The position numbers and the translations under genes are program-made. Shown here piece after piece: positions 7,661 to 42,548 of a stretch of DNA of 42,548 nt. The notes under the pieces are model-generated. The model was given only the letters and a program-made list of their open reading frames with translations, made no database searches and was not told where the DNA came from. Source of the DNA: Thermoanaerobaculia bacterium (GTDB taxonomy: Bacteria > Acidobacteriota > Thermoanaerobaculia > Multivoradales > JAHZIX01); assembly GCA_027069135.1 (NCBI GenBank), contig JALXFE010000465.1, positions 1-42,548 of the forward strand, in the 5' to 3' direction. Position 1 is the first letter of the stretch. Every line of letters begins with the position of its first letter.

Positions 7661-9451
7661 ATGTTGGGTTCCGCCCTTTTCGGAAAATCTCACAGGAAGC
7701 GGGATGCGTGTCTAGGCATGCTCCTGCTCCTGGCAGCGTCGCTTCCGGCTCTCGGCGCCCGCCGGGAGTTGGACCTCCGTCTCCAACGATTGGACCTTCC
7801 CGGGGCCCCTGCCGCCATCGTGGCGACGGATCTCGACGGGGACGGGCGTCGGGATCTAGCGATTGCGGTGGTCTACACCGTCTGGGATCAGCTCGAGCTG
7901 GAAGAACAGACCGAGATGGACGAGATCGAGGGTCTCGTCGAGGTCCTGACCATCGTCTCAGCCCTCCTCGATCATCGCGAGCTCTTCCTGTTCCTCGGAC
8001 GGGAGGATGGAACCTACCAGCCCCTGGCGGATCCCCTGAGGCTCCCGACCTCGATTCTCTCCATCGAAGCGGGCCCCGAGGACCGTGGCCTGGTCGCTCT
8101 CACCGACGAGGGGCTGGCTCAGCTCGCCCTCCCGGATGCCGAGGGGGAGGCTCCGTCCTGGGAGCTCATCATCGAGGAGGCGCCGGTCCTCGCCGGTACC
8201 GGGGCCTTCTTTCCGCCCATGGGCCTGATCCGGGAGCTCGACGGCCACCCCGGGGAAGACGTCCTCTTACCGGCGACCCATGGTTACTCCGTCTACCTGA
8301 ACGGGGAAAACGGTCTTGAGAGCAAAGCCGCTCAGCGGGGACTGCTGCCCGCCTTCGAGAATCTTCCCAACCGGGCTTCCGGCGCCTTCATCCGCTTCTA
8401 CCCCCTTCCCGAGGTCCGCGATACCGATGGCGATGGCCGACCGGACCTGCTCTTTCCCCATCCCCAAGACCATTGGAAAGATTTCCGCCGGGCCGAGAAT
8501 CTCGGTGGGCGCTTCGGTGCCTTCTCTGCTCCCCTCGAAGGCTTTTCACCCCTCGAGCGCCCAGAGTTACCTCCGAGGAGTAGCGAAGATTCGGGCGCTG
8601 AGGGAGAGGGTGCTGAGGGAGAGGGTGCTGAGGGAGAGGGTGCTGAGGGAGAGGGTGCTGAGGGAGAGGGCTCTGAAAGCGGGATGCCAGAGGAAAACGC
8701 CGTGCTTTTCGAGGACATCGATGGCGATGGCCGGGCTGAGCTGATCACCCAAGAGCAACTCGACCAAGATGCCGAAGGCCTGCGAGAGGGATTGGAGGAA
8801 GCCCGGCGACCGGAGTTTCGCTACCGAATATATCCGCAAGGTCCGGGTGGAGCCCTCGTCAAGGAGCCCGCCTTGGATTTCCAGGTGACCGGCTACGCTC
8901 TGGCCGGCGACCCGGACTTCCCCTTTCCCGGAGGGTTCGAGGACCTCGACGGGGACGGGCGCAAGGATCTGATCACCCTCACCCTCGACTTCTCCTGGAT
9001 GCAGGCGGTCAAGATCCTGGCCACCCAGCGCATCAGCATCGGCCTCGACTTCCACATCTGGTGCCAGAGACCCGATGGATCCGGTTTCACCCAGGTCCGA
9101 GGTCTGGACCTTTCCGGAAAGTTCAAACTCAATCTCAACAATCTCCGGACCCACCAGCTCTCCCAATTCGCGGGAGATTTCAACGGCGACGGTCGGGCGG
9201 ACTTTCTCCAGATCGGCCGCGGCAAACAAGTTTCGATCCATCTGGGCCAGGAGGGCTGCGCCTACCCGGCCAAAGCGGATTTGCAGCTGGAACTGGCGGA
9301 GAAGCCCGAGGATCTAAGCCTCGTCCAGGTCCGAGACCTCGACGGGGATCAGCGCTCCGACTTGATCTTCATTCAGCCCCGGCGCTCGGAGACTACCGAG
9401 GGCTCTATTCCGGTTCGGCTGGATCTCTACCTCAGTGGAGGTGAACGATGA
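7661..9451 (+). CDS. Secreted FG-GAP/VCBS-like repeat protein with AEGEG insert
   Basis: 596 residues; AGGAGG lies about nine bases before ATG 7661. A signal peptide (KRDACLGMLLLLAASLPALG) is preceded by a basic N-terminus. The mature protein carries at least six DxDxDGxxD loops: DLDGDGRRDLAI, DTDGDGRPDLLF, DIDGDGRAELIT, DLDGDGRKDLIT, DFNGDGRADFLQ and DLDGDQRSDLIF. These are the calcium-binding signature of FG-GAP/VCBS propeller blades as in integrin-alpha-like surface proteins. Between blades, near residues 313-337, sits a five-fold AEGEG repeat encoded by 15-base DNA units. The stop overlaps the start of the next FG-GAP gene (ATGA at 9448), so the two proteins are made together and may act as a pair. 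Substrate or partner is unknown. Confidence 0.85.
   Translation: MLGSALFGKSHRKRDACLGMLLLLAASLPALGARRELDLRLQRLDLPGAPAAIVATDLDGDGRRDLAIAVVYTVWDQLELEEQTEMDEIEGLVEVLTIVSALLDHRELFLFLGREDGTYQPLADPLRLPTSILSIEAGPEDRGLVALTDEGLAQLALPDAEGEAPSWELIIEEAPVLAGTGAFFPPMGLIRELDGHPGEDVLLPATHGYSVYLNGENGLESKAAQRGLLPAFENLPNRASGAFIRFYPLPEVRDTDGDGRPDLLFPHPQDHWKDFRRAENLGGRFGAFSAPLEGFSPLERPELPPRSSEDSGAEGEGAEGEGAEGEGAEGEGAEGEGSESGMPEENAVLFEDIDGDGRAELITQEQLDQDAEGLREGLEEARRPEFRYRIYPQGPGGALVKEPALDFQVTGYALAGDPDFPFPGGFEDLDGDGRKDLITLTLDFSWMQAVKILATQRISIGLDFHIWCQRPDGSGFTQVRGLDLSGKFKLNLNNLRTHQLSQFAGDFNGDGRADFLQIGRGKQVSIHLGQEGCAYPAKADLQLELAEKPEDLSLVQVRDLDGDQRSDLIFIQPRRSETTEGSIPVRLDLYLSGGER
8597..8671 (+). repeat. Five tandem 15-base units inside the FG-GAP gene
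   Basis: GCTGAGGGAGAGGGT is repeated five times head to tail at the same phase (8597, 8612, 8627, 8642, 8657); only the last base of the fifth unit differs. Each unit encodes AEGEG, so changes in copy number keep the reading frame. The near-perfect identity points to recent expansion by slippage. Confidence 0.95.
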
Positions 9452-20393: not shown

Positions 20394-20411
20394 CCACTTT
20401 AGTGGTTTTTT
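20394..20411 (+). promoter_or_regulatory. Small hairpin with T-run just before the Calx-beta ribosome site
   Basis: CCAC-TTTA-GTGG followed by TTTTTT ends five bases before the AGGAG ribosome site of the Calx-beta gene. It resembles a mini terminator and could work as an attenuator in the leader RNA. The stem is only four or five base pairs, so the call is weak. Confidence 0.3.
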
Positions 20412-20427
20412 GATAGGAGAATATATC

Positions 20428-22470
20428 ATGGGAAAGAAGTATCTATATCAGCTTTCACTCGCACTGCTCGCCCTTGTTCCGGCCTCTTGGAGCTGGGCTC
20501 AAACCCCGGGAGAGTTCAAGATTGACGAGAGATCTTACTCGGTGATCGAAGAGCAAGGATCGTTGACGATCATCATCGAGCGATCCCGAGGCGAAGACGG
20601 TGCGGTGAGTGTCGACTACGCCACCAGCGACGGCAGCGCCACCGACGGTGCCGACTACGTCGGCGCCTCCGGAACCCTCAGCTGGGATGACCAGGATGGC
20701 TCAGATCGGGTGATCACTCTGACGATTCTCGACGACGCAGAGGGCGAAGGTCCGGAAACCTTCCAGCTTACGCTCTCCAACCCCACCGGCGGCGCCATCA
20801 TCCGGGCCGGCCGCGGTGAGAGCTTGATCACCATTCAAACCAGCGACGGCGGCGATGGTGGTGGCGGTGGCGGTGGTGGTGGCACCGGCGACGACGATGA
20901 TGACGACGACGACGACGATGATGACGACGATGATGACGACGATGATGACGACGATGATGACGACGACGACGATGATGATGACGACCAGGACGCTGGCGAA
21001 TTCCGCTTCGACGACCACGACTTCGTCATCGCCGAAGAGGCTGGTTTCGCCCTGATCACCGTCGAGCGCAAGAGCGGTGAGACCGGTGCTGTGACCGTCG
21101 ACTACAGTGTTGCCGATGGAACGGCGGAGAGTGGAACAGATTACGACACCGTGTCCGGCACTCTTTCCTGGGACGACGGCGACGACAGCGACCGGACGTT
21201 CATGGTGCCGATCATCGACGATGCCGATGCCGAAGGCGACGAGACGGTCCTGCTGGCTCTTTCAAACCCCACCGGCGGCGCCACCATTCGCTCCGATCGC
21301 GGTGAGGCCGTGCTGATCATCCTCGCCAATGACGGCGGCACCGGCGGTGGTGGTGGCGGTGGCGGCGGTAACCGCGCCGGCACCTTCAAGTTCGACCAAC
21401 GGGGCTTCGTCTCCCTGGAAGGCGTCAACTTCGCGGTGATCACCGTCGAGCGTTCCCGGGGCGAGAACGGGGCGGTGAGTGTGGACTACGCCACCAGCGA
21501 CGGTTCCGCCACCGAAGGCGACGACTACACCGCAGCCTCCGGCACCCTCTCCTGGAACGACGGTGACGGCAGCCTGCGCACCTTCACAGTGCCCATCATC
21601 GACGACGCGGACGCAGAGCCCAGCGAGACGGTGAACCTGGCGCTCTCGAATCCCACCGGCGGCGCGATCATCGACTCGATCCGTGGCACCGCGGCCTTGA
21701 CCATCCTCGACAACGACGGCGGTGGCGGTGGTGGAGGCGGTGACCAGACCGACCCGGGCACCCTGAAGTTTGGCTCTGCCACCTTCCAGGTGATCGAAGG
21801 CAATACCTTCGCTACCATCCGAGTGGAGCGATCTGGTGGCGGCGCCGGCGAGGTGAGCGTGGACTATGGGACAGCGGACGGCAGCGCGGCGGATACCGTC
21901 GACTACCTCGGGACCTCCGGGACCCTGACCTGGCCTGCCGGTGACGAGACCGACCGCTCCTTCGACATCCAGATCTTCGACGACACCGATTCCGAGGGCA
22001 ACGAGACCGTGCTGCTCTCCCTGGCCAACGCCACCGGCGGTGCCACCATCGATCCGGTGCTCGGCGAAGGGACCTTGACCATCTTGGACGACGACGGCCA
22101 GACCCTGGCCTGCGTGCCGGGAGCCAACAGTCAATGCTTCCTGGGGGGCCGCTTCAAGGCGACAGTGAACTGGCGGACCCGCAACGGCGCCAGCGGTCGT
22201 GCCGTGGCTTCCCCGCTGTCGGATACCTCCGGCCTGTTCTGGTTCTTCAACGAAAACAACGTCGAGATGCTGGTCAAGGTGCTGGACGCCTGCGACACGC
22301 CCCGGTTCAACAAGTTCTGGGTATTCTTCGCCGCTACCACCAACGTCGACTTCACCCTCACTGTCACGGACACCGCGACGGGCTTGGTGAAGGAATACCA
22401 GAACCCATTGGGACAGGCGGCGGTACCGGTGCAGGACACCTTCACCTTCGAGACCTGTTCGACGAAATAA
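20428..22470 (+). CDS. Secreted Calx-beta repeat protein with poly-Asp run and C-terminal domain
   Basis: 680 residues from ATG 20428, with AGGAG eight bases upstream. Signal peptide KKYLYQLSLALLALVPASW, cleavage after WAQ region. Four Calx-beta domains of about 105 residues follow, each with VSVDYxTxDGxA, a 'GTLxWxDGD' element and xETxxLxLSNxTGGA. They are joined by Gly-rich linkers (runs of eight or nine Gly), the first linker also containing 32 consecutive Asp. Calx-beta domains bind calcium. Domains 1 and 3 share long identical stretches (AVSVDYATSDGSAT), suggesting recent duplication. The last 115 residues form a separate domain with GRFKATVNW, LFWFFNENNVEMLVKVLDA and TDTATG, also found twice in the ELWxTDGT protein at 32109. 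Probably a surface or extracellular protein. Confidence 0.88.
   Translation: MGKKYLYQLSLALLALVPASWSWAQTPGEFKIDERSYSVIEEQGSLTIIIERSRGEDGAVSVDYATSDGSATDGADYVGASGTLSWDDQDGSDRVITLTILDDAEGEGPETFQLTLSNPTGGAIIRAGRGESLITIQTSDGGDGGGGGGGGGTGDDDDDDDDDDDDDDDDDDDDDDDDDDDDDDDDQDAGEFRFDDHDFVIAEEAGFALITVERKSGETGAVTVDYSVADGTAESGTDYDTVSGTLSWDDGDDSDRTFMVPIIDDADAEGDETVLLALSNPTGGATIRSDRGEAVLIILANDGGTGGGGGGGGGNRAGTFKFDQRGFVSLEGVNFAVITVERSRGENGAVSVDYATSDGSATEGDDYTAASGTLSWNDGDGSLRTFTVPIIDDADAEPSETVNLALSNPTGGAIIDSIRGTAALTILDNDGGGGGGGGDQTDPGTLKFGSATFQVIEGNTFATIRVERSGGGAGEVSVDYGTADGSAADTVDYLGTSGTLTWPAGDETDRSFDIQIFDDTDSEGNETVLLSLANATGGATIDPVLGEGTLTILDDDGQTLACVPGANSQCFLGGRFKATVNWRTRNGASGRAVASPLSDTSGLFWFFNENNVEMLVKVLDACDTPRFNKFWVFFAATTNVDFTLTVTDTATGLVKEYQNPLGQAAVPVQDTFTFETCSTK
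20890..20985 (+). repeat. Run of 32 aspartate codons
   Basis: Thirty-two successive GAC/GAT codons form a low-complexity tract in the first linker of the Calx-beta protein. Much of it follows a 12-base period GACGACGATGAT, repeated about four times in the middle. The 5' flank encodes a Gly run. Confidence 0.97.
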
Positions 22471-38596: not shown

Positions 38597-39313
38597 GTGC
38601 AGCAAGAGATCTACTTCCGCCAACTTCTAGCGGGACGCGAGCTAGCTCAAGCGAATCCGGCAGCGGGCCAGATGCGCAATTTCATGTATCTGATCGGGGA
38701 TCCGGCCAAACGGGAGGCGGTCATCGTAGATCCTGCCTGGGACGTCATGAGCCTCCTGAAGGTCGCTCAGGAGGACGGTTACAACGTGGTCGGTGCCCTG
38801 GTGACCCACTACCACCCGGACCATTGCGGCGGCAGCCTCTTCGGATTCAAAGTGGAGGGGATCGCCCGGCTGCTGGAGGAGCAGGGCATGCCGATCTTCG
38901 TCAACAAGCACGAGGCCGACGGCCTCAAGAAAGTGACGGGAGTTTCCGATACCGACCTTCACAAAGTGGACGATGGCGACACCACCCGAGTTGGAGACGT
39001 GGAAGTCCGCTTCCTCCACACCCCAGGGCACACCCCCGGGAGCCAATGCTTCATGATCGGCAACCGCCTGGTGGCCGGTGACACCCTCTTCGTCCAGGGC
39101 TGTGGACGGGTCGACCTCCCCGGCGGCGACCCGGAGGCCATGTACTACTCCCTCACCGGCAAGCTCGCCAAGCTGCCGCCGGACACCATCCTCTACCCCG
39201 GCCACGACTACGGCGGCTCCCCGACCTCCACCATCGCCGACGAGCTACGCCAGAACTACTACCTCAAGGTCCATTCCCTCGAGGATTGGCGACGGTTGAT
39301 GGGCCTCGCCTGA
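38597..39313 (+). CDS. MBL-fold hydrolase (glyoxalase II-like)
   Basis: 238 residues from GTG 38597; AAAAGGAGGG ends seven bases before it. The metallo-beta-lactamase fold motifs are complete: THYHPDHCGG (H-x-H-x-D-H), FLHTPGHTPGSQCFMI with the third metal His, AGDTLFVQGCGRVDLPGG with the bridging Asp, and LYPGHDYGG with the final His. The layout and GCGRVDLPGGDPEAMY match glyoxalase II/persulfide dioxygenase-type enzymes: the former hydrolyses S-lactoylglutathione, the latter oxidises glutathione persulfide. Glutathione usage is unproven here, so the substrate is open. It is divergent from the YHS lipoprotein gene. Confidence 0.9.
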   Translation: MQQEIYFRQLLAGRELAQANPAAGQMRNFMYLIGDPAKREAVIVDPAWDVMSLLKVAQEDGYNVVGALVTHYHPDHCGGSLFGFKVEGIARLLEEQGMPIFVNKHEADGLKKVTGVSDTDLHKVDDGDTTRVGDVEVRFLHTPGHTPGSQCFMIGNRLVAGDTLFVQGCGRVDLPGGDPEAMYYSLTGKLAKLPPDTILYPGHDYGGSPTSTIADELRQNYYLKVHSLEDWRRLMGLA

Positions 39314-39537
39314 AGCCTCTAAGCCCCGAGAACAAACCCTCCTCACCTTTCCTCACTCCCTCCCGGGCACTTCCTCACACTTCCTAACGGTCTGCTGCCT
39401 ATCGCGGCTAAGGCCTTCCGACCACAGTGACATCAACAGCTAGAGCACGGCTCTTGTAGCAGGCTCAGTAGACACGACCCGGAGCCTGATTTGCGGCGCA
39501 GGCACAGTGCCTCATCACCAGAAGGGGGTAGAACCAG

Positions 39538-40749
39538 ATGCTTCAATCTCATCACTCCAAAGCTTCCGTCTCCCCGCAGGGAGAACCCACGTCGAGGGTA
39601 GGCATGCTGGGGGTTCGCTGGAGCCGCTACGGCCTGGTCATTCTCTTCTTCCTCGTTGTTGCAATCTTGCGCGGTGTCTTCGTGGATGGAATCGACGGTT
39701 CGAGGCCGGAGCTCCGGAACCTGCCCACTCCACAAGCCACCAACGCCAGCCTCGAAGAGCTAGCCGTCGCGCCCACGGGTGGTGACGCACGCCCTCCCAC
39801 TCTCAATCTATCGGGCCCGTTGCGTATCGAGGCCGAGCCTTCGGGAAATCTCTTTGTGGTCGAGGATTGGGGCGCCGTAGACGAGACCCTGCGGCTTCTT
39901 TCGAAAAAAGGTGAACTCCTGCGAACCTTCCCTCCCACAAGTGCCCCTTTCGCCCGGTCCATTACTGACCTCGTGGCATCAAGAGACCGACTCCTGGTCG
40001 CCGATCTCATCGCTGGTGCGATCCATACTCTGGACCGTAGAACCGATCGGTGGACTACCATCCAACACGATCCGGCGCCCTATCGAATCGAGGTCGATCG
40101 AGCCGGCGACCTCATCACGATGCACATTGGCGAGATGGCGCTCTTCACAAGAAACTCGGCGAGTGGTGAGGAATCGGCCTCTTTCGGCGAGCTCCTTGTC
40201 GACCCGGAAGAGCACTCTCTGGTTCTCGATGGCTTCGTCACCCGCGCGGGGAAACGGATGATCTACGCCGGCAAGCATCTAGGGATTATTGCTTCCTACT
40301 TCACAGGAGGTGAGCTCGAATACCTGGTGCAGACGATATCGAATCCTCCGATTCCAATCGTGATGCGAGGAAAGAACCGATCCCGGTCAGTGCAGAGAAA
40401 TCCGCTACCGGCGACCCTGGACGTCACCGCCGATGAGGAGACCATCTATCACCTGGCCCCCCGATTAGTCGGCCTTCGGGTCCGCGCTGGAATAGACCTC
40501 TACAAGGCGTCGAACGGCAGCTATTACCGCACCTTCTTACTGCCAGCAGATCAAAAATGGTCATCGATCACCATGGGAAACGATGCCCTTTATGCTGCCG
40601 GAACACAGTCGATAATCTCGTGGCCGAAAGCTGAGCTCTCGGCCACCTCGAATTCTACCAAGACTCCGACTGGACGAGTGATCGTTCTGATCGGTCCAGA
40701 AGAAAAAGCCCCTGAAAACATTCAGGAGAAAGGAGGAATCGATGTGTAA
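39538..40749 (+). CDS. Membrane-anchored six-bladed beta-propeller-like protein
   Basis: 403 residues; GAAGGGGG lies upstream of ATG 39538 (a second Met at residue 23 is possible). One transmembrane helix at about residues 31-48 (YGLVILFFLVVAILRGV) leaves a short cytoplasmic N-terminus. The outer part looks like an NHL/six-bladed propeller: PLRIEAEPSGNLFVVEDWG, LRLLSKKGELLRTF, SRDRLLVADLIAGAIHTLDR, PYRIEVDRAGDLITMH, YLVQTISNPPIPIV and TLDVTADEETIYHLAPRL, then SSITMGNDALYAAG. Related propellers in Bacteroidetes occur beside NVEALA peptides. Here a decayed and two intact small Cys-peptides and a MauE-like protein follow on the same strand, suggesting a functional unit. Assignment rests on repeat pattern only. 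Confidence 0.75.
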   Translation: MLQSHHSKASVSPQGEPTSRVGMLGVRWSRYGLVILFFLVVAILRGVFVDGIDGSRPELRNLPTPQATNASLEELAVAPTGGDARPPTLNLSGPLRIEAEPSGNLFVVEDWGAVDETLRLLSKKGELLRTFPPTSAPFARSITDLVASRDRLLVADLIAGAIHTLDRRTDRWTTIQHDPAPYRIEVDRAGDLITMHIGEMALFTRNSASGEESASFGELLVDPEEHSLVLDGFVTRAGKRMIYAGKHLGIIASYFTGGELEYLVQTISNPPIPIVMRGKNRSRSVQRNPLPATLDVTADEETIYHLAPRLVGLRVRAGIDLYKASNGSYYRTFLLPADQKWSSITMGNDALYAAGTQSIISWPKAELSATSNSTKTPTGRVIVLIGPEEKAPENIQEKGGIDV

Positions 40750-40868
40750 AGACTTCCAATCTGCCAAGTATCCTCTCAGCGATCGTCTTCGCGGCAGCGT
40801 GAACCACTGCGGAGGCAGATGCAGCCAAAGCCACCAACACCTGTAACGACAGCAGGAGTCTTTGTTAG
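40742..40868 (+). pseudogene. Decayed third copy of the small Cys-X6-Cys peptide
   Basis: AAAGGAGG (40729-40736) and ATG 40742 overlap the propeller stop (ATGTGTAA), an ideal start. The frame from this ATG gives only 34 unrelated residues. Shifting by one base after the third codon gives a leader (SNLPSILSAIVFAAA), a TGA stop, then TTAEADAAKATNT and CNDSRSLC, ending at TAG 40866-40868. The hydrophobic leader, the TAEA element and C-x6-C spacing match both intact peptides downstream. I infer a peptide gene broken by a frameshift and an in-frame stop, perhaps also truncated. Sequencing error could account for the frameshift. A 34-residue peptide translated from the strong site is the alternative. 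Confidence 0.55.
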
Positions 40869-40942
40869 ATGTTAGCTGGGGTCTACAGATCTCTCAAACC
40901 CCTCTGTCTTTTACCAACAAACAAACACAAGGACCCAAAGAA

Positions 40943-41134
40943 ATGAAACGAGCACTCAATGCGATCAAAGCCACCCTCTTACTAACCGCCTTCGCAGCAA
41001 CGACATGGGCTGTTACCAGCACCGAACCGGCATCAGCCGGAGGTGTTCTAAAATGCTCCGGGTCCGGACACTCTTGCCATGTCAAGGTCAACGGAGTTAC
41101 TTATCATTCCAAGGTCGACAAGCCCTCCGTATAA
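40943..41134 (+). CDS. Small secreted Cys-X6-Cys peptide 1
   Basis: 63 residues from ATG 40943, AAGGA nine bases upstream. The basic start (MKRALNAIKA) and hydrophobic stretch TLLLTAFAATTWAVT form a leader, followed by EPASAGG at about 28-34, which could be cut by signal peptidase (ASA) or after the Gly-Gly. The core has two cysteines, C38 and C45 (KCSGSGHSCHV), then NGVTYHSK. It aligns without gaps to the next gene product: shared residues include M1, K2, L5, K9, A10, G33, G34, C38, G40, C45, N50, G51, T53 and K57. No known family is certain. The leader-core layout resembles NVEALA-type peptides of Bacteroidetes. Likely exported, with a C38-C45 disulfide. Confidence 0.75.
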   Translation: MKRALNAIKATLLLTAFAATTWAVTSTEPASAGGVLKCSGSGHSCHVKVNGVTYHSKVDKPSV

Positions 41135-41269
41135 GAGAGTCTAAGATCATCCTACACAAAACGGCAATCCACTGAGCCTGCGAGCTGGGGCTAGAAATTG
41201 CAGGAATTGCCAAGAAAAAACAATCATCGATCCGCTGCCGTCAACGAGCAGCAGAAAGGAACAACCATC

Positions 41270-41461
41270 ATGAAAAATATTTTGAGATATTGCAAGGCGA
41301 TCCTTATCATGGGAGCTTTGGTCCTGGTCGCTTCATCGGCAACCGTAAGGACCGCCGAGGCAAGCGGGGGCACCCAGCTTTGCGCAGGGGTCGGGACATC
41401 CTGTGAGTTCACGCATAACGGCCATACCCACTATCTCAAAGGATGTTGCGTCGCGTACTAG
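41270..41461 (+). CDS. Small secreted Cys-X6-Cys peptide 2
   Basis: 63 residues from ATG 41270, with AGAAAGGA about ten bases upstream; an earlier in-frame start exists but lacks a ribosome site. The leader is MKNILRYCKAILIMGALVLV, then ATVRTAEASGG ending at residue 34 with the same Gly-Gly as peptide 1. The core has C38 and C45 (LCAGVGTSCEF), then NGHTHYLK and a further pair CC at 59-60 absent from peptide 1. The gene lies twelve bases before the MauE-like gene, so the two are probably co-translated. It is the closest relative of peptide 1 in the window and of the decayed copy at 40742. Function is unknown. Confidence 0.75.
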   Translation: MKNILRYCKAILIMGALVLVASSATVRTAEASGGTQLCAGVGTSCEFTHNGHTHYLKGCCVAY

Positions 41462-41473
41462 GGGGCTACCACG

Positions 41474-41977
41474 ATGACTAATCCAAGTGCCACACCGGGA
41501 CCCCTTCGGGGTCGATCTTATCTCTTGCTTGATAATTCCGCTTGGGTTTTTGTCGCCGCCTTTATGGCCCTCGCAGGCATCGACAAATTGTTCCATTACC
41601 CAGGATTTGTCAATGCCATCAACGACTATCGCATCTTGCCCATTCCACTGGGCAAGTATCTGGCGCCGGTACTCATCTCTCTCGAGCTGGGTGTCGGCGC
41701 CGGTCTCTGCCGACGTAGCTGGCGACGATCGGCAGCGCGTCTGTCAACTCTCCTTCTCGTCATCCTGACCATCGCTTGGAGCGCGAACAAGGCTCTTGGT
41801 GCACGGGGAATTTGCGGCTGTTGGTTCAGCATCAATATGGGTAACGACCGCGTGCATCTGATTTTGAATATCACGTTAATCTTCTTGAGCCTCTTGATCT
41901 GGTATGGCGAGGCCGACCGGCCTCTCGCCCTCGATTCGACATCGGAGCGAGTCCTTCGTCGAAGGCCCCTTGACTAA
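41474..41977 (+). CDS. MauE/DoxX-type redox-associated membrane protein
   Basis: 167 residues with four membrane helices (about 23-40, 62-80, 88-107, 126-144). The MauE pattern is clear: AGIDKLFHYPGFVNAINDYR, ILPIPLGKYLAPVLISLELG, then ILTIAWSANKALGARG with C114-G-C116 (ICGCWFS), the redox-type CxC seen in the family, and HLILNI. MauE is needed for disulfide formation in methylamine dehydrogenase small subunit; DoxX relatives act in quinone-linked redox chemistry. No mauA, mauB or mauD gene is present, so it is an orphan here. Position right after two Cys-X6-Cys peptides suggests it oxidises or supports them. That link is inference. Confidence 0.85.
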   Translation: MTNPSATPGPLRGRSYLLLDNSAWVFVAAFMALAGIDKLFHYPGFVNAINDYRILPIPLGKYLAPVLISLELGVGAGLCRRSWRRSAARLSTLLLVILTIAWSANKALGARGICGCWFSINMGNDRVHLILNITLIFLSLLIWYGEADRPLALDSTSERVLRRRPLD

Positions 41978-42003
41978 GGTGAACCGGAAGGTCTTACTCA
42001 ACC

Positions 42004-42548
42004 ATGTTCAGCACCCTAGCAAACACTCGCAGGCGTTTCCCGGGAGGGCCCTTCCTCGCCATCCTCTCTACCCTTGCCCTCGGAATCGCAGGGGCGACAA
42101 TCGTCTTCTCGATGATCTCCGGAACAGGCATTCTCGCTACTTTCCAGGGGGAGGGGACGGTCTTCTGGGTCATGGAGGAGTATCCGAGGTGGGGTGCGAA
42201 GACATCCCCCTCTCCAGCGACCTTCGAGGCGTGGAGAGGTTCTCTGAAATGTTGTCAAGTTGAGGGTCTTGCTCTCGGAGAAGGGGGGCTTCGCTCCGAC
42301 GGTGGCGCCCGCCGGATCTATACGGCGTCGGTCACCAGTGGACTCTTCGGCTTGGTCGGGGAGAGCCCTCTCGCTGGCAGCCTCCTGAGCTCACCGGATA
42401 GCGACGACGGGGGCGGGATCGCCTTGATCAGCCGGCAGTTGGCAAACCAACGCTTTGGGAATCCTCGGAAGGCTATCGGGCAGACGATTTTTGTAGACGG
42501 TAATCCATTGGGCATTGTCGGCGTCGTCTCGAACCGCTTCCTTGGCAA
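42004..42548 (+). CDS. MacB/ADOP-type ABC permease, N-terminal part (runs off the window)
   Basis: 181 complete codons from ATG 42004; the gene continues beyond the right edge. The first helix (FLAILSTLALGIAGATIVFS) matches the MacB_PCD start 'LTLALGIGANTAIFS' common in acidobacterial duplicated orphan permeases. The periplasmic core region then shows YTASVTSGLFGLVGESPLAG, IALISRQLANQRFGNPRKAI and GQTIFVDGNPLGIVGVV, all standard for the MacB periplasmic core. MacB-type permeases export peptides, lipoproteins or drugs with an ATPase partner, which may be outside the window. It follows the MauE-like gene by 26 bases, so it may be co-transcribed and export the peptides. Confidence 0.85.
   Translation, partial: MFSTLANTRRRFPGGPFLAILSTLALGIAGATIVFSMISGTGILATFQGEGTVFWVMEEYPRWGAKTSPSPATFEAWRGSLKCCQVEGLALGEGGLRSDGGARRIYTASVTSGLFGLVGESPLAGSLLSSPDSDDGGGIALISRQLANQRFGNPRKAIGQTIFVDGNPLGIVGVVSNRFLG

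Follow-up and report, generated by a model that had tools for sequence, protein, structure and literature searches.

Two Peptide Genes between a Propeller Gene and a MauE Gene

The window, i.e., the whole stretch of 42,548 nucleotides that was analysed, carried near its right end two small genes lying between the gene of a propeller protein and that of a MauE/DoxX-family membrane protein, the latter being followed by the start of a permease gene (Table 1). An earlier reading made from the sequence alone had placed at 40943 and 41270 two genes of 63 residues each, aligning end to end without gaps and sharing a set of landmarks. Both open reading frames were found there, each with an ATG start preceded by an AAGGA ribosome-binding-like sequence, and all the landmarks listed (G33, G34, C38, C45, N50, G51, T53 and K57) were identical in the two peptides. 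The residues G40, G42 and S44, missing from that list, were identical as well.

Table 1. Position of the peptide genes and of their neighbours in the window.
Feature	Position	Strand	Description
Propeller protein	39538..40749	+	403 aa; N-terminal TM helix ~28-48, predicted six-bladed NHL-type beta-propeller ~70-385
Peptide 1	40943-41134 (including stop)	+	63 aa; predicted signal peptide 1-32 (...EPASA), mature part GGVLKCSGSGHSCHVKVNGVTYHSKVDKPSV
Peptide 2	41270-41461 (including stop)	+	63 aa; predicted signal peptide 1-31 (...RTAEA), mature part SGGTQLCAGVGTSCEFTHNGHTHYLKGCCVAY
MauE/DoxX-family membrane protein	41474..41977	+	167 aa, CGCWF; Pfam MauE 3e-16
ADOP-type permease, start (MacB_PCD, FtsX family)	42004..42548	+	ends at contig edge; Pfam MacB_PCD 1.2e-11

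Without gaps, 19 of the 63 positions were identical (BLASTP E-value of 3e-8 for this single comparison), and 11 of 31 in the mature halves. Not one of 100,000 composition-preserving shuffles of one of the sequences, with its leader and mature halves shuffled separately, matched the score or the identity of the real pair, and likewise none reached the score of the mature halves. The predicted mature parts, about 31–32 residues long, contain two and four cysteines, respectively, and the sole two of peptide 1 align with the conserved cysteine pair of the family described below. The AlphaFold2 model of peptide 2 showed a helix at 2–31 and a beta-hairpin at 44–57 with a turn at N50-G51, at low confidence (pTM 0.33), so that it is too weak for claims on the fold. 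A search of PDB sequences with the peptides gave chance-level matches only.

Directly behind the propeller gene, the segment 40743-40868 of the forward strand reads VKTSNLPSILSAIVFAAA, stop, TTAEADAAKATNTCNDSRSLC, stop, a single TGA interrupting the frame and no start being evident. When all six frames of positions 39300-42548 were scanned with a profile that excluded the window peptides, this segment was the best match after the two real peptides (9.6 bits, E-value 0.003-0.005), and it retained the AxA site and the C-x6-C spacing. Tentatively, this segment is probably a decayed third copy of the peptide gene.

The AlphaFold2 model of the propeller protein (mean pLDDT of 80, pTM 0.79) consisted of one TM helix and a beta-propeller, which aligned with the NHL domain of Brat over 254 residues (VIA-align Z of 22.7, rmsd of 3.1). 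According to this model, the fold is of the six-bladed NHL type. No Pfam family, NHL and DUF5128 included, matched the 403 residues; among the other propellers of the family, three matched SGL and two matched DUF5128/NHL. The MauE gene starts 12 bases past peptide 2, and its product scored 60.3 bits against PF07291, above the Pfam gathering cut-off of 27.

The last 127 bases of the window (42422-42548) are exactly the first 127 of contig C252 of the same genome (G000:C252:1-127). This overlap joins the contigs and extends the permease frame to approximately 783 aa, a convergent gene lying thereafter. Against TIGR03434 the fragment in the window scored 64.6 bits (E-value 5e-18) and its continuation on C252 289 bits, the two parts being scored separately and the cut-off being 622. 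The protein is ADOP-like, no ATPase gene is visible, and approximately 20 full-length ADOP-type permeases are encoded elsewhere in the genome, so that the link between permease and peptides may be loose.

The Peptides Recur in a Three-Gene Cassette

A first profile, built from the two window peptides, found a tandem pair in genome G024 and single genes in G001, all of which adjoin a homologous propeller and a MauE gene. Most of its weak matches were due to chance, and the real ones were told apart by their neighbourhood (G024, G001 and, at an E-value of 0.89, G007). A second cassette was present in the genome of the window itself, on contig C119, with the order MauE, peptide, propeller and TPR protein. 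Profiles of the propeller and of MauE, together with the scan of one named genome, added further loci in G416, G106, Acidobacteriota OFTM268 (two loci), Gpa_5, a Thermoanaerobaculum MAG (L062) and a genome labelled candidate division KSB1 (L063). In total, at 11 of 11 cassette loci, the window included, a peptide gene lies beside or between the MauE and propeller genes, and at all ten loci other than the window propeller homologues adjoin the peptides. The hosts live in soil and in the sea and represent at least two phyla (Acidobacteriota and that of the single KSB1-labelled genome). Searches of plasmids and of viral contigs found none.

The majority order was MauE, peptide, propeller. The window and locus L060 showed the order propeller, peptide, peptide, MauE, permease, and in L063 a peptide gene lies on either side of the propeller gene. 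The latter is frameshifted, reading in two overlapping frames (L063:9015-10059) through a frameshift or a sequencing error. In the G416 cassette, a signal peptidase I gene (L052:3451-4173) directly follows the propeller gene, an arrangement that fits processing at an AxA site. Genes for MacB/FtsX-type permeases were found in or near five cassettes (the window, L060, L053, L063 and L052), and RND pump genes flank those of L061 and L065. At three cassettes no adjoining exporter was observed: L066 and C119, where a TPR protein is encoded, and L062. A pair of ECF-sigma factor and Ser/Thr-kinase genes is divergent from the cassette at L066, L064 and C119, which suggests that some of the cassettes respond to envelope signals.

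The alignment of 14 family members revealed a common anatomy made of a basic start, a hydrophobic stretch, an A-x-A-type end and a mature part of approximately 25–45 residues. The first half of the precursor, judged by these features, is predicted to be a Sec-type signal peptide with an AxA-type end. The mature core is C-x-G-x-G-x-x-C, relaxed in some members; the form tested was C-x-G-x(4)-C, which is present in both window peptides. C38 is invariant, and C45 and G51 are nearly so. The length ranges from 58 to 74 aa, and the equal length of 63 aa is thus not a trait of the family. The Gly-Gly at 33-34, a landmark of the sequence-only reading, is identical in the two window peptides but is not one of the family, as it sits just past the AxA-type site and is found there in only a few of the 14 members. 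A double-glycine bacteriocin leader of the C39-processed kind was rejected, the GG not being general and the leader being signal-peptide-like. Pfam and NCBIfam gave isolated weak matches, placing none of the 14 peptides convincingly in a curated family. The peptides form a newly recognised family of putatively secreted Cys peptides not covered by the families of Pfam and NCBIfam.

Controls, Rarity and Selection

When the peptide profile was trained without the locus under test and run on all ORFs of that locus, the peptide ranked first at 11 of 11 loci, with E-values from 5e-6 to 6e-13 at ten of them and of 0.03 at one. Profiles trained on the other loci recovered window peptides 1 and 2 with E-values of 5.8e-13 and 1e-9, respectively. 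The two window ORFs are, therefore, genuine genes with relatives in other genomes. The phylum scan also supplied 19 other MauE/DoxX loci as controls, where neither propeller nor peptide was present. A homology-free definition (50–80 aa, signal-like, AxA, at least two Cys, near MauE on the same strand) picked out a peptide at 9 of the 11 cassette loci versus 0 of the 19 control loci (Fisher p of 4e-6). C114, G115 and C116 of MauE are invariant in the 11 cassette members, with the motif CGC[WL]F. All the MauE homologues examined possess the CGC, including the 19 controls, and CGC by itself is, therefore, no marker of peptide oxidation.

The scan of 396 genomes of the phylum yielded five MauE genes scoring above 160 bits, in four genomes, one of which has two, and all five lie in cassettes. 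The MauE ranking next scored 84 bits; it is a decayed fragment with an ADOP permease behind it and neither peptide nor propeller. In the phylum of L063, a cassette-type MauE was present in 1 of 82 genomes, the one to which L063 belongs. With 4 genomes in 396 and 1 in 82, the cassette is rare and patchy.

The cassettes of C119 and L064 are orthologous and contain the closest orthologous pair of peptides; their dN/dS ratios were calculated by NG86 and LWL85. The peptide gave 0.12 and 0.16, respectively, MauE 0.17 and 0.16, and the propeller 0.29 and 0.27, above the values of the peptide; the ratios are rough, since the dS of 1.4-1.9 indicates synonymous sites near saturation. The peptide is clearly under purifying selection. 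The proposal that the two window genes belong to a selected small-peptide family is, therefore, borne out by this constraint and by relatives at 10 or more further loci. It had been made on the understanding that a lack of homologues would speak for coincidence, and the profile search found such homologues.

Looser Loci That Pair Propellers with Cys Peptides

Three loci showed looser arrangements. In G117, a Cys peptide, a thioredoxin-like protein and a propeller are encoded consecutively without MauE (L056:2344-4324), with an ABC exporter nearby; the thioredoxin-like protein seems to replace MauE. In G227, two tandem Cys peptides (L110:10945-11422) are followed by a propeller-type protein (L110:11590-12726), near a sigma-54 activator and again without MauE, an arrangement related to the cassette yet separate from it. 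In G414, several Cys-rich small proteins alternate with propeller proteins (L111:705-5383). As L056 and L110 lack MauE, this protein is not universal among loci that combine a propeller with a Cys peptide, and the three loci constitute a looser set surrounding the MauE cassette.

A Model for the Cassette

We propose a model in which the genes form a dedicated envelope cassette, with small secreted Cys-peptide precursors, MauE and the propeller taking part in a pathway that leads from Sec through disulfide formation and docking to a pump. This model is probable to a modest degree. The results above establish the family, its signal-peptide-like anatomy, the selection acting on it and its association with MauE and the propeller, whereas the disulfide, the docking, the export and the effect of the peptide are inferences. 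In the first step, Sec would carry the precursor over the inner membrane and signal peptidase would cut at the AxA-type site, leaving about 31–32 residues; both events are suggested by the anatomy of the peptides. MauE would then assist, via its Cys-Gly-Cys, the formation of the C38–C45 disulfide in the C-x-G-x-G-x-x-C loop. In methylamine dehydrogenase, MauE has been proposed as the protein that introduces the disulfides of the small subunit (PMC7794033). The oxidised peptide would dock on the membrane-anchored six-bladed propeller and might there be held or presented in the periplasm. Finally, where such an exporter is present, the MacB/FtsX-type permease or the RND pump would move the peptide through the outer membrane or away from it. 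Our best guess is that the peptide plays an intercellular or antagonistic role.

Part of this pathway has a counterpart in STII and SDP, Sec-exported and disulfide-bonded peptides which are handled by MacAB-TolC or YknXYZ (PMC5985334). Compared by description, the cassette shares with them a Sec-type signal, a small Cys peptide and, at five loci, MacB/FtsX-type permease genes, but it adds a dedicated MauE and a propeller, and no ATPase is visible for its ADOP-like permease.

Another likeness is to Bacteroidota. There, NVEALA peptides (PF14055) pair with six-bladed propellers (DUF5128). The cassette peptides are likewise small, exported and rich in Cys and Gly, and two propellers of the family match DUF5128; however, the NVEALA motif is absent from the cassette peptides. 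No PF14055 match was found in the whole genome (E-values up to 10) or among the 14 family peptides (E-values up to 1), and identity with NVEALA was rejected on this HMM result. Literature searches on NVEALA, and on MauE with a beta-propeller, yielded nothing usable, and the three-part cassette was unreported in the papers found.

The product might instead be RiPP-like or bacteriocin-like, with MauE modifying it, the propeller acting as immunity or binding protein of the producer, and the pump exporting or clearing it. In Streptomyces, decRiPPter lists candidate RiPP clusters in which MauE genes adjoin precursors with at least eight Cys, in genomes that, as here, lack other mau genes (PMC7794033). 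The paralogous precursors that lie in tandem in the window and L060 would suit such a product, as would the rare and patchy occurrence of cassette-type MauE (4 of 396 genomes, one of them holding two, and 1 of 82). The comparison with the window is by description: the Streptomyces precursors have at least eight Cys versus two and four in the window mature parts, the phylum is different, and no propeller is mentioned in the part of the report consulted (PMC7794033). Moreover, the leader is of the Sec signal type and differs from the cytoplasmic leaders of RiPPs, and the genes observed around the cassettes included no cyclase, radical SAM, YcaO or C39 peptidase. A product of this kind is unlikely in our estimation. 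Among the published work found, the MauE-containing candidate RiPP cluster is nonetheless the nearest idea, the combination with the propeller being what differs.

The strict adjacency of peptide and propeller could also mean that the peptide stays with the propeller for good, as a small subunit or ligand that is never released, and serves as a redox or stress sensor within the envelope, regulating the neighbouring pump or the ECF-sigma/kinase genes. The divergent sigma-factor and kinase pair at L066, L064 and C119 is consistent with it, as is the fact that the peptide is more constrained than the propeller. A fixed subunit would be less likely to occur in two diverged copies, as the peptide does in the window, L060 and L063, and the window lacks the regulator link. 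We regard this explanation as rather improbable.

In the mauBEDA (MADH) system, a membrane protein of the MauE family occurs together with an exported subunit that is small and rich in Cys and with a partner of propeller fold. The cassette pairs all three of these ingredients, so that it might encode a miniature amine-dehydrogenase-like enzyme matured by MauE, with a small Cys subunit and a propeller subunit. This is highly improbable and was largely refuted: the window mature peptides, with only about 31–32 residues, are far smaller and contain no Trp, two of which are needed for TTQ, the MADH light-chain family PF02975 is absent from the genome (E-values up to 0.1), none of the 11 propellers matched an amine-dehydrogenase family (Pfam, up to an E-value of 0.1), and the closest folds are six-bladed NHL domains. 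Coincidental similarity between chance ORFs, for which the mere 30% identity of two short ORFs might speak, is refuted by the homologues and has a negligible probability in view of the shuffles (0/100,000), the recovery by profiles from other loci, the conserved neighbourhood and the dN/dS.

Returning to the model of a dedicated envelope cassette, a broader and more tentative proposal is that it represents an undescribed envelope peptide system, used for signalling or antagonism. A Cys peptide secreted by Sec would be served by a dedicated MauE that forms its disulfide and by a dedicated propeller acting as its receptor. Depending on the lineage, the system would be coupled to a MacB/FtsX-type or RND pump or to the ECF-sigma/kinase pair, and the G227, G117 and G414 loci would form a wider halo with another protein in place of MauE or with none. 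This proposal is possible, if somewhat doubtful. Little is known of the small peptides that Acidobacteriota secrete, in part because such peptides are often passed over by gene callers and family libraries. With a fixed three-gene cassette as a guide, they can be sought and tested, as it predicts for each peptide an oxidase, a receptor and sometimes a pump. It may also reveal the roles of many stand-alone MauE and propeller genes in poorly studied bacteria.

Repeats Elsewhere in the Window

A protein of 686 aa with Calx-beta domains is encoded at 20410-22470 on the forward strand, with a 12-base tandem repeat at 20889-20985. The mutual resemblance of antisense ORFs in this region probably exists only because of the repeats. 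A near-perfect 15-base tandem repeat of 5.2 copies was located at 8593-8670, within the gene of an FG-GAP-repeat protein.
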